Virus record (IMG/VR): IMGVR_UViG_3300007735_000724
Span: 1-40,692 of that record
Direction: 5' to 3' (one strand)
Origin: a virus
DNA length: 40,692 bases
A program made the position numbers and the translations under genes. Positions 128 through 35,857 of the stretch are shown piece by piece. The notes beneath the pieces were generated by a model. It was given only the letters and a program-made list of their open reading frames with translations. It was not told the DNA's origin and searched no databases. Numbering within the stretch: position 1 is the stretch's first letter; each line of letters starts with the position of its first letter.

Positions 128-648
128 GCCATCGCTTCATCATAAGGCTCGGAGTGAAGTCTTACATCATTTTCATCACCATCACGGGCAATCGCTACCA
201 AGTTAACATTGTTAACCTTGGCCTTGCCAGATTTTTCTAACAGGTATCCATAAACCTGAACCTGCCAACGCTGTTGCATTGACGGGAAGTAACTTAGGTT
301 CTTAACCTTTACAGTTTTCCAATCAACTACATCACCAGTTCCTGGTATGAATAAATCTATATGAGCTTTGATACCACCATATTCAACTTCTGTTTCAACC
401 CAATACTTCTCACCCTTTGGGTCAATAGCCTCAATAGATCGTTCAATCTCTGAGTGGATAGCAGTTCCCATAATTGCAGCCAACTTCTTTAATTCAAAAT
501 TAGTTTCAGGCTGGTTATTCAACCGATACCAAACTTTACGACGGCAACCACCAATCTCTGATGGGCCAACTTGGGTCTGCTTAGAGCGAGATTTATTAGC
601 ATCCTTCTGATGTAATACTTCTAGTAAAAACTCTTTTGGATTACTCAT
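1..648 (-). CDS. Cas4/RecB-like PD-(D/E)XK nuclease, N-terminal 216 codons (cut by window edge)
   Basis: ATG at 648 opens a frame that runs off base 1 and resumes at 40565, ending at 40257, for 318 residues in all. The PD-(D/E)XK core is visible: GTAIHSEIE with His65, HID with Asp98, DWK with Asp109 and Lys111, then the QVQVYGYLL motif near 129-137. Cys35, Cys200, Cys204 and Cys215 are placed like the four ligands of the Fe-S cluster in Cas4/AddB-type nucleases. The expected role is 5'-3' or ssDNA exonuclease activity in phage recombination or replication. The start overlaps the end of the PP-loop gene by 8 bases, so the two are translationally coupled. Motifs are seen; the function is inferred from the family. 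Confidence 0.85.
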   Translation of the reverse strand, partial: MSNPKEFLLEVLHQKDANKSRSKQTQVGPSEIGGCRRKVWYRLNNQPETNFELKKLAAIMGTAIHSEIERSIEAIDPKGEKYWVETEVEYGGIKAHIDLFIPGTGDVVDWKTVKVKNLSYFPSMQQRWQVQVYGYLLEKSGKAKVNNVNLVAIARDGDENDVRLHSEPYDEAMALDALNWLAAVKEAKEAPDPEKDESFCKHYCQYYDASGQMGCV

Positions 649-1480
649 TGCTCTCTCTTTCATCTTCCTGGAAGAAACATCCGCAACCGCCAATATCTAG
701 TTCATCAACCTCTTGCTTGGCTTCTACTCTACGCCTTAATTCTATTAAAGGCAAAGGCTTTTTTACTCCAGCTACCATCTCGGTAAGGATGGATACATCT
801 TTGCCAATATGAGCAATTGTTTCCTGTTCTTTGCGTTCCCACATTTCAAAACGTTCAGGCATAACTTCTAATAATTTCTTAAACTGCCCCTGTCCTGCAC
901 GGACACAACCACCACCACAATTGTTATGCGAGAACCCAAGATCATAAAGTCTTGGAGTCTTCAACCCTTCATTCTGCGCCCATTTAATAAGTTCTTCTTT
1001 ATCCCAATATGGCTTGGCAGTTGAATGATAGTAAGGAATTGCTAATGGAGCCTGTGCCTCATAAGGCTTATAGTTCTTAATGATTGCTGGTAAACGATGA
1101 GTTTCAGTCCAATCAATACCAACATAAACTATTGTGTTATTAACTTCGCAATTTTCATTAAGCCATTCACGAGCTGGCTTTTGTTTTAAAATATGGGAGC
1201 AGTGAGCAAGTCTACTATTGCCTAAGAAATTTCTATCTTTAAATACTTCCCAAATATCTCTACCTTCATTTAGGTAAACCAAAGTTCCACCTATATTTTC
1301 AGCAGCATCTTTAATAAAACGGTAGGTATCTTCATCTTCCCCGACGTGTGGGGATTCATTACTTCCCTTAACATCGGTGAAGACTAGATACAATCCTTCG
1401 GTGCCGAATCTGTTGGCAACCATTTTAGCTGCGCCCCAAGATCCGATACCTCCGGAAAACATCACCACTCGTTTAATCAA
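641..1480 (-). CDS. PP-loop (PAPS-reductase-like) adenine nucleotide alpha hydrolase family protein
   Basis: 279 residues. The N-terminus MIKRVVMFSGGIGSWGAAK holds the PP-loop SGGIGSW (residues 9-15) that binds ATP pyrophosphate in PAPS reductases, QueC-like and tRNA-thiolating enzymes. There is a CSHILK motif in the middle, HNNCGGGCVRAGQG further on, and CGC near the C-terminus. These cysteines could bind a metal or Fe-S cluster or carry sulfur. The gene overlaps the peptidase upstream (ATGA, 4 bases) and the Cas4-like nuclease downstream. Phage homologues are often labelled PAPS reductase, but the true substrate is unknown. A nucleic-acid thiolation or modification role is equally possible. 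Family confident, reaction not. Confidence 0.75.
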   Translation of the reverse strand: MIKRVVMFSGGIGSWGAAKMVANRFGTEGLYLVFTDVKGSNESPHVGEDEDTYRFIKDAAENIGGTLVYLNEGRDIWEVFKDRNFLGNSRLAHCSHILKQKPAREWLNENCEVNNTIVYVGIDWTETHRLPAIIKNYKPYEAQAPLAIPYYHSTAKPYWDKEELIKWAQNEGLKTPRLYDLGFSHNNCGGGCVRAGQGQFKKLLEVMPERFEMWERKEQETIAHIGKDVSILTEMVAGVKKPLPLIELRRRVEAKQEVDELDIGGCGCFFQEDERESNE

Positions 1481-2040
1481 AATATTGTCCTCTCCTGGAT
1501 TACCAACTGTAAAGGCTTGCCAGTGTTGACGTCAAGGACCGACGCAATCTCAACTGCTTTTCGGGCGAGTCGCTTTGCTTCCTCTAACCCAATGTCAGCC
1601 TTGACACCTGAATATAAATACCCAAGAGCAAACTGCCCGCCACTACCAATAGCGTAGGCTCCGACATCGCTTTGGAAAAAAGAGAGGTCACAAGCAACGC
1701 GAAAGATATTGCCGTTAAAACTAAGTAAATAATCGAAACCACCATCTGGGTCCACCTTATTGAAGTCGTAGTTGTTCTCATTAAAAGCCTTAATGATACT
1801 TGGTATTACTTTCTTGCCCATAAAACTTACTGGATTTTCCCCGCGATAAGCAGGTGGTTTCCAGTTGTATGCGAGTATATCTCCTGGTCTAGTATCACCA
1901 GAGATAGCAAGTAAGAACTTACCTACTTCAACTATCTTTGGTGTGCTAAGTGCAAGAGTTACCAGATTAGATTCGGTGATCTGACTATCAGCTACGAGAA
2001 CTGCGTAATCAATTCCTTCTATTCCAACAACCGTTGTAAT
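1477..2040 (-). CDS. Ntn-hydrolase peptidase, HslV/proteasome-beta-like, with probable ATT start
   Basis: The first in-frame ATG is at 1821, but homologous sequence continues 73 codons upstream without a stop. Those codons read TTVVGIEG, VADSQIT and ISGDTRPGD, the N-terminal strands of an HslV/proteasome-beta fold. Extending to ATT at 2040-2038 gives 187 residues beginning (M)TTVVGIEG. An AGAAGG Shine-Dalgarno lies 6 bases upstream of that ATT, and no ATG, GTG or TTG is in frame there. After Met removal Thr1 would be the nucleophile; Asp17 and a Lys at 34 match the catalytic Thr1/Asp17/Lys33 plan of HslV. YAIGSGGQFALGYLYSG is the conserved glycine-rich loop. It probably cleaves capsid or host proteins. 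It heads the leftward replication block. Confidence 0.85.
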   Translation of the reverse strand: MTTVVGIEGIDYAVLVADSQITESNLVTLALSTPKIVEVGKFLLAISGDTRPGDILAYNWKPPAYRGENPVSFMGKKVIPSIIKAFNENNYDFNKVDPDGGFDYLLSFNGNIFRVACDLSFFQSDVGAYAIGSGGQFALGYLYSGVKADIGLEEAKRLARKAVEIASVLDVNTGKPLQLVIQERTIF

Positions 2041-2133
2041 GTGCCACCTTCTTTCATCGGGCGTGAATCATATCACGACACGCCAGGATTTGATATCAGG
2101 CGTTTATTACCAGTGTCTGTGTATAATACGAGC
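2041..2133. promoter_or_regulatory. Divergent promoter region between the peptidase operon and the HNH island
   Basis: This 93-base gap separates two diverging genes. Rightward, a perfect TATAAT lies at 2122-2127, seven bases before GTG 2134. Leftward, an extended -10 (TGATATGAT read on the minus strand, hexamer at 2067-2072) would start RNA near 2060, just ahead of the SD of the peptidase gene. Inverted repeats GTGA-N6-TCAC (2063-2076) and GCGTG-N13-CACGC (2061-2083) straddle the leftward -10 and could be operators. No convincing -35 hexamer is seen on either side. All of this is read directly from sequence; the function is inference. Confidence 0.5.
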
Positions 2134-2427
2134 GTGAGCGAGTTTAAACGGTCTGAGCGCCCTTCAAGGGCGCAGAACAGTCAGTATACGGTTACAGTGC
2201 GGCTCCGTCTACCAACCCTGTTCAAAAAGAAAGACCGCCTGCCCGATAAGTTTGGCTCGGACTTGAGGTCCTTGGGACCGATACACGCCTGTCCCTGCGG
2301 TTCGCAGGTATTTAGCGTTATGGCTTCCTTTGAAGACTACGAGCTAGTCTGGTATCACTTAGACGCAACCTGTGTTAACTGCGGTAATCTGGTAATAGTT
2401 CCGTGTCCGGTGGACAAAGATGAATAA
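2134..2427 (+). CDS. Small zinc-ribbon-like protein, possibly leaderless
   Basis: GTG at 2134 gives 97 residues. An upstream GTG at 2041 is in frame, but it would place the -10 box inside the gene. The C-terminal half carries HACPCGS and CVNCGNLV, a CxC/CxxC pair suggesting zinc binding. A TATAAT box ends 6 bases before the GTG, so the transcript may begin on or next to the start codon, as is common for leaderless mRNAs in Actinobacteria. An 8-bp inverted repeat with a 1-base centre (2157-2173) lies in the first codons. The gene overlaps the HNH gene by 8 bases. Function unknown. Confidence 0.7.
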   Translation: MSEFKRSERPSRAQNSQYTVTVRLRLPTLFKKKDRLPDKFGSDLRSLGPIHACPCGSQVFSVMASFEDYELVWYHLDATCVNCGNLVIVPCPVDKDE

Positions 2428-34848: not shown

Positions 34849-35228
34849 AGCTGGACTGCCTCCTCAATTGAAAGATAACCTACTGACTTAGCTACCTTTT
34901 GCTGGTTCTCGAACTCACTTGTTGCTGGCATAATATGACTAACCCATTCAGGTTCAGGTATATCCATCAGGTCAAACGAATAAACTCCTAGCGGAGTCGA
35001 GTTAATATAAAAGGGGATGAGGTCGCGCTCTGCGCTCTGCGTTATGAGCTTGCGATACTTTAGTTCTTCAATGAGCAGGGTAGGGTAGTGAGTATGACGG
35101 CACTTGAGTTCAATGTAATGACCTGCTTGCTCGCTGATACAATCAAATGAGTCATAGATACCAGGACTTTTAACAAGGTCCGGATATAAGTTCTGCTTTA
35201 GATAGTCAAATAACTCTGCCTCTATCAT
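34845..35228 (-). CDS. PD-(D/E)XK nuclease-like protein, 127 residues
   Basis: A short restriction-endonuclease-like core: YDSFDC (Asp26/Asp29), then HYIELKCRHTHYPTLLIEEL in which Glu40-Leu-Lys42 is the (D/E)XK motif. Two further Glu follow on the same helix. This matches small phage nucleases. It sits between the sigma-like and FmdB-like genes with overlaps at both ends. Substrate unknown. Confidence 0.65.
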   Translation of the reverse strand: MIEAELFDYLKQNLYPDLVKSPGIYDSFDCISEQAGHYIELKCRHTHYPTLLIEELKYRKLITQSAERDLIPFYINSTPLGVYSFDLMDIPEPEWVSHIMPATSEFENQQKVAKSVGYLSIEEAVQL

Positions 35229-35857
35229 CTGAAAGGACTATCCCCACCTAGTAAGTTCTGTAACTTACGAAGTGAATTAGAACAGCGACGATCAGCAGTA
35301 GATAAGGCGCAACCATAAACCTCTGCTATCTGTTGCAGGGTGAGCGCTTCGTGATGACGAAGCAGTAGTAAATCTTTATCGGCTTGTTCTAACTTCAGGT
35401 AAGCCTTCTTAATATCTATTAACACGGCAAGCAGGTTGCCACCCTCAGAAGGAGATGATGAGCCGCGAGGTTGCCCATCTTTAATCATATCTTGTGCCTG
35501 TTCTAGCACTGTGCCATCTACTATCGAAGCAATTACATAGGGCAGGAGCTGGCCCAAGGTAGCAGTTTCATAATAAGTTTCATCTGTTATCGAATAGCCA
35601 GACTTATCTGCCTTCTGCCTGCGAGCGTAGCGCTCTGCAACTCTACGCATTTGCCACGCAATACGCTGAAGGTTATGTTTATTCTGTTCAGGATCAGGCT
35701 CTGCTAACTGCTCGTTGATATAGTAAGCACGACTAACTGCCCATATGTAACACTCTTGGGCAAGGTCTGCCTTCTCTATGAAGTTCTTGTAACGGCGATA
35801 GATACTGTTAGTAACCGAAGGAACTAAGTCGTATACTGCAGGGTCTAGTTCAGTCAC
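35225..35857 (-). CDS. Sigma-70-family-like transcription factor
   Basis: 210 residues. Region 2-like: VTNSIYRRYKNFIEKADLAQ then ECYIWAVSRA, comparable to the helices of ECF sigma factors that bind core polymerase and the -10 element. A long helical linker follows. Region 4-like: LEQADKDLLLLRHHEALTLQ, then QIAEVYGCALSTADRRCSNS, a HTH that would bind a -35. It overlaps both neighbours by 4-8 bases. It probably switches host RNA polymerase to phage promoters, consistent with the lack of clear -35 boxes in this genome. Family call from pattern. Confidence 0.75.
   Translation of the reverse strand: MTELDPAVYDLVPSVTNSIYRRYKNFIEKADLAQECYIWAVSRAYYINEQLAEPDPEQNKHNLQRIAWQMRRVAERYARRQKADKSGYSITDETYYETATLGQLLPYVIASIVDGTVLEQAQDMIKDGQPRGSSSPSEGGNLLAVLIDIKKAYLKLEQADKDLLLLRHHEALTLQQIAEVYGCALSTADRRCSNSLRKLQNLLGGDSPFR

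Follow-up and report, generated by a model that had tools for sequence, protein, structure and literature searches.

A phage gene for a proteasome-beta/HslV-superfamily peptidase carries a conserved ATT or ATC in place of a canonical start codon

We asked where translation begins in a peptidase gene on the minus strand of a viral DNA of 40,692 nucleotides (IMG/VR record IMGVR_UViG_3300007735_000724; the whole stretch analyzed is referred to as the window). An in-frame TGA (2070-2068) bounds the reading frame upstream, a stop codon (1479-1477) closes it, and the first ATG, GTG, or TTG that it offers is the ATG at 1821-1819, use of which would remove the strand carrying the N-terminal nucleophile. 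The original prediction had placed the start instead at an ATT (2038..2040, minus strand) lying six bases after AGAAGG (2052-2047), and the frame, the ATG, the ATT, and the AGAAGG with its spacing were all found where they had been described. Read from the ATT, the gene spans 1477..2040 (minus strand, stop included) and comprises 187 codons. Start codons of the 57 genes scored in the window were ATG (39), GTG (9), TTG (8), and, for the peptidase, ATT (1). Relaxed start-codon use throughout the phage was ruled out, as the peptidase is the sole gene among these 57 that needs a non-canonical start.

The encoded protein belongs to the proteasome-beta/HslV superfamily of Ntn hydrolases according to its Pfam, PHROG, and fold matches. 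More specifically, it scored 53.1 bits against Pfam Proteasome PF00227 (cut-off 22.4) and matched PHROG 1040 (peptidase HslV family) over residues 2-184, i.e., as a full-protein match (E=4.6e-23). An AlphaFold model based on 35 diverse phage homologues had a pLDDT of 90.4 and replaced an earlier model from a shallow alignment (pLDDT 36). A Foldseek search with this model returned BPH (the beta-proteobacterial proteasome homologue, 5ovs) first (E 5.5e-12), with proteasome beta and HslV chains next, and VIA-align gave a Z of about 20 to proteasome beta chains, the residue after the ATT (model residue 2) being superimposed on proteasome Thr1. BPH, the 20S proteasome beta subunit, and HslV share with the phage peptidase the Ntn fold and the Thr1/Asp17/Lys33-34 positions, but sequence identity to them is roughly 16-26%, and the phage protein scores below the equivalog cut-offs for both HslV (21.7 bits versus 157.75) and the archaeal proteasome. 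A search of the 40.7 kb record, which may itself be incomplete, revealed no hslU; the partner ATPase could be a host unfoldase. Thus, the earlier assignment to an HslV/proteasome-beta-like peptidase holds at the level of the superfamily, whereas the name HslV is too narrow, given the equivalog score, the failure to find an HslU in the record, and a fold nearest to proteasome beta and BPH. A protein of Actinomycetia phage DSL-LC01 (PHROG 1040) belongs to the same family, with an M-T-T N-terminus and 34% identity. We also noted a phage protein of 134 residues (BFVD A0A6J5NF82; 45% identical) that is shorter than the family and may have been annotated from an internal ATG.

The N-terminus is confirmed by comparison of related sequences, in which the N-terminal segment, codons 2-73, is under strong purifying selection. 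Within the clade that contains the window (see below), variable columns in this segment numbered 9, 7, and 38 at the first, second, and third codon positions, respectively; the 33 nt just before the ATT gave 4, 1, and 4 and are not coding-like. In three within-clade pairs, dN was 0.000-0.006 at dS 0.35-0.44, and the two pairs that include the most distant member gave a dN/dS of 0.11-0.15 (about 0 to 0.15 overall), the segment being conserved equally with or more than the rest of the gene. Thr1, Thr2, Asp17, and Lys34 are invariant across 135 distinct sequences, Lys34 lying one position off HslV Lys33. Homologues begin M-T-T at the same place, and the ATG relatives all begin at the homologous position among the matches listed. 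The active-site residues of the original prediction (Thr1, Asp17, and a Lys near 34) are therefore present throughout the homologue set, and the extended N-terminus, the lack of which in homologues had been named as grounds for rejection, is present there as well. The proposed N-terminal nucleophile likewise agrees with the structural superposition and with the selection on these codons.

IMG/VR contained 14 further contigs, from 13 metagenomes (by contig name), that form one clade with the window. The proposed start codon is ATT in 11 of the 15 clade members and ATC in 4, all four among the related contigs; ATG, GTG, and TTG occur at this position in none. Two pattern scans, run independently, sought ATH followed by the N-terminal peptide (a complete scan) and the Shine-Dalgarno (SD) sequence followed by any codon and the peptide; both returned the identical 14 loci. 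Members bearing the SD all have ATT or ATC, and the ATH members found all bear the SD. A protein scan of IMG/VR yielded 80 loci in which the homologous codon was ATG (63), TTG (3), ATT (10), or ATC (4). In the window and eight other clade members, no ATG, GTG, or TTG occurs from the in-frame stop to the ATT; in the remaining six, a GTG that precedes the predicted -10 box, at -36, is the sole in-frame canonical start. The ATT at 2040-2038 is thus the only plausible initiator, a part of the original prediction that gains support from the ATT or ATC behind the same SD in the 14 other contigs.

In a tree built from the coding sequences minus the start codon, the window and the 14 contigs form one clade (support 100/99), with a single switch from NTG and at least two exchanges between ATT and ATC. 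No ATT or ATC start was found among 131 other distinct close sequences in the matches listed or among the 79 distant relatives in PHROG 1040, which have ATG, GTG, or TTG instead; within these sets the codons are limited to the window's clade, the scan of relatives with canonical starts having covered such starts only. GTG and TTG stand at the start site in a few relatives, with no visible SD among the matches listed, a point against the account favored below. A search of bacterial genomes found no relatives of the peptidase. The gene order (tail, endolysin, holin, a divergent small gene, peptidase, helicase, and sigma factor) is broadly alike in both start-type groups, and the peptidase genes are therefore orthologues. 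Judged from these comparisons, the phage gene family has a real, fixed non-canonical start.

The SD sequence AAAGAAGGTG (2045..2054, minus strand) is invariant in all 15 clade members. Its anti-SD pairing in the window (-13.8 kcal/mol) ranks first among the 57 gene starts, and values across the ATT/ATC clade range from -13.4 to -14.2 kcal/mol in the AAAGAAGGTG context. Upstream lies a predicted -10 box, TATGAT (2067..2072, minus strand; TAYGMT in the clade), which holds the in-frame TGA in 9 of the 15 members and from which a transcription start, and hence a 5' leader of about 20 nt (2041..2060, minus strand), can be predicted. The box is preceded by a block, GGCGTGTCGTGA (2073..2084, minus strand), that is invariant in the clade and also precedes the leaderless ATG starts of three more distant relatives (L304, L306, and L307), in which the promoter core GGCGTGTCGTGATA is joined directly to the ATG. 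In the ATT/ATC clade, the predicted box stands at -32, i.e., 20 nt further upstream than in the ATG relatives. All 129 distinct ATG relatives among the matches listed carry TANNNT starting at -11 to -14 (nearly all at -12 or -13), which leaves a gap of 6-7 nt to the ATG, and their anti-SD pairing is weak (median, -5.7 kcal/mol). Their mRNAs are thus predicted to be leaderless; in the ATT/ATC clade, the -10 box does not have this spacing. Among the matches listed, the relatives that lie closest to the clade without belonging to it, L145 (ATG) and L130 (GTG), are of the leaderless type. Folding of the leader RNA from five members revealed no common structure.

Several further features of this region were observed. 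The promoter block was considered as a repeated phage element and rejected, as the window holds one exact copy. The predicted leaderless promoters of the relatives (60 nt upstream of the start) share, ahead of the -10 box, an inverted repeat (GTGTCG...CGACACGCC) that may serve as an operator or as a promoter for a phage sigma factor, and in the window's clade a half-site of this repeat is reversed (GGCGTGTCG). A sigma-factor-like protein with sigma-70 region 4 is encoded at 35225-35857 (minus strand) and might recognize the promoter that precedes the peptidase gene. Between the -10 box and the SD, an out-of-frame ATG (2055-2057, minus strand) opens a 12-codon ORF that overlaps the ATT start.

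Explanations that dispense with initiation at ATT or ATC fare poorly against these data. The rarity of ATT starts is the only point in favor of reading the ATT as an ATG miscalled during sequencing or assembly, and the idea is refuted by the ATT or ATC of 14 other contigs, which stem from 13 metagenomes; an ATG at 2038-2040, sought as a refutation of the original prediction, was seen in no clade relative, leaving error with a negligible probability. Translation from the ATG at 1821, with the upstream frame dead in a truncated or decayed gene, would employ the first canonical start in frame. It is contradicted by the low dN over codons 2-73, by the loss of the nucleophile strand, and by the position at which the ATG relatives begin, and we regard it as scarcely credible. 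Use of another start (an ACG at -24, a GTG at -7, the ATG at -17 combined with a frameshift, or a start farther upstream with a self-cleaved propeptide) is very improbable, if somewhat less so. The out-of-frame ATG (2057-2055) does occur in the window and in one relative (L014), and the GTG overlaps the SD. However, that ATG is missing from the other 13 members, the ACG precedes the inferred transcription start, the upstream 33 nt lack a coding pattern and, in nine members, are interrupted by a stop codon in frame, and the shared M-T-T beginning marks the same N-terminus in homologues.

A more serious alternative accepts AUU/AUC initiation and denies it regulatory meaning, the start having drifted after the gene had acquired a strong SD and expression having remained adequate. 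The phage's strongest SD does belong to the peptidase, and the repeated ATT/ATC exchange would fit a third base that varies freely between T and C. Selection against G is not evident, and selection against ATG at the start site could not be demonstrated in the clade: the lack of G there is expected anyway, because G is ever present in only 4 of 40 fourfold T/C clade columns. Against drift, ATG is strongly favored in general, reconstructed switches from AUG to AUU numbering 1 in 61,358 (PMC5622118), so a weak start under no selection would be expected to return to ATG; none of the 15 members did so. We consider drift possible, although unlikely.

The account we regard as probable is one in which an AUU/AUC start behind an SD-bearing leader gives low output and arose once from a leaderless ATG ancestor. 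The AUU (AUC in some sister phages) would be read by the ordinary fMet initiator tRNA, while the extended SD in the leader of ~20 nt would hold the ribosome, allowing initiation, albeit inefficient, at a start codon that pairs poorly; removal of fMet would then expose Thr1 as the catalytic nucleophile. As to its origin, a leaderless-ATG ancestor may have gained the SD-bearing leader. The codon would then have been free to become ATT or ATC, because leaderless messages need AUG itself and an SD-led message does not, and peptidase output would have been held low. On this view, the strong SD most likely compensates for a weak start codon that IF3 discriminates against, with output kept low.

Such starts have precedents in bacteria. 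AUU, AUC, and AUA serve as bacterial start codons that are discriminated by IF3, and leaderless messages, which depend on the AUG itself, are antagonized by IF3 (PMC4611024). The original prediction held that AUU is known mainly for infC, which is incomplete, as further cases of non-canonical starts are pcnB (AUU), sigR (GTC), cvfC1 (AUU), and ccpN (AUA). In infC, which encodes IF3, an AUU (Escherichia coli), ATC (Streptomyces), or AUA (Staphylococcus aureus) initiator is fixed across a lineage as in the phage clade; however, infC autoregulates since its product is IF3, whereas the phage product is a peptidase and could be linked to IF3 in one direction only, if at all. In S. aureus, conserved AUU/AUA starts behind an extended SD reach about 10% of the output from AUG in poor medium (PMC13009471). 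Like the phage gene, cvfC1 and ccpN combine a conserved non-canonical start with an extended SD, but they are cellular Firmicutes genes with ribosome-profiling evidence and the phage gene is known from comparative evidence. E. coli pcnB and Streptomyces sigR exemplify an inefficient start that limits one protein, as proposed for the peptidase, although their functions are unrelated to it and sigR's anti-sigma partner is made in excess; in Streptomyces, sigR starts at GTC and is repressed by IF3, and infC starts at ATC (PMC5472188). We found no earlier report of an AUU- or AUC-initiated phage gene among the open-licence PMC papers searched.

Control of the peptidase by IF3 levels, in line with the link to initiation factors suggested in the original prediction, is plausible and a reasonable extension of known biochemistry, in which leaderless AUG and SD-led AUU/AUC starts are both disfavored by IF3 and favored by IF2. 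A bolder and rather doubtful proposal is that the leaderless AUG of most phages and the SD-led AUU/AUC of the clade are two solutions to one requirement, namely that the peptidase, the first gene of the replication-side run, be placed under the host IF2/IF3 balance.

The host probably belongs to the Actinomycetota, as suggested by a terminase with 42-43% identity to Streptomyces phage terminases, a neighboring protein matching mycobacteriophage L5/D29 gp49, and the best named peptidase homologue, which comes from a lake Actinomycetia phage and lies beside a WhiB gene. The carriers are a phage family known from metagenomes. On comparative grounds, they provide a clear, fixed phage case of a weak start that is rare and has otherwise been described in a few bacterial genes. 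Common gene finders accept ATG, GTG, and TTG only; a prediction of the peptidase would therefore lack the catalytic N-terminus, and phage genes of a similar kind may be missed or shortened in annotation. One orthologous gene here offers a natural series of starts (leaderless ATG, leaderless GTG, SD plus ATT, and SD plus ATC), and the cost and use of weak starts are therefore directly testable.

Two neighboring genes deserve mention. A PAPS-reductase-like gene (641-1480, minus strand) shares 4 nt with the peptidase stop, its TTG start lying within TTGA; it is also found downstream in L001 and L013 and was not detected in most other clade members. A small divergent ORF (2188-2427, plus strand) with CxC...CxxC motifs and no Pfam match is conserved next to the peptidase gene in both start-type groups.
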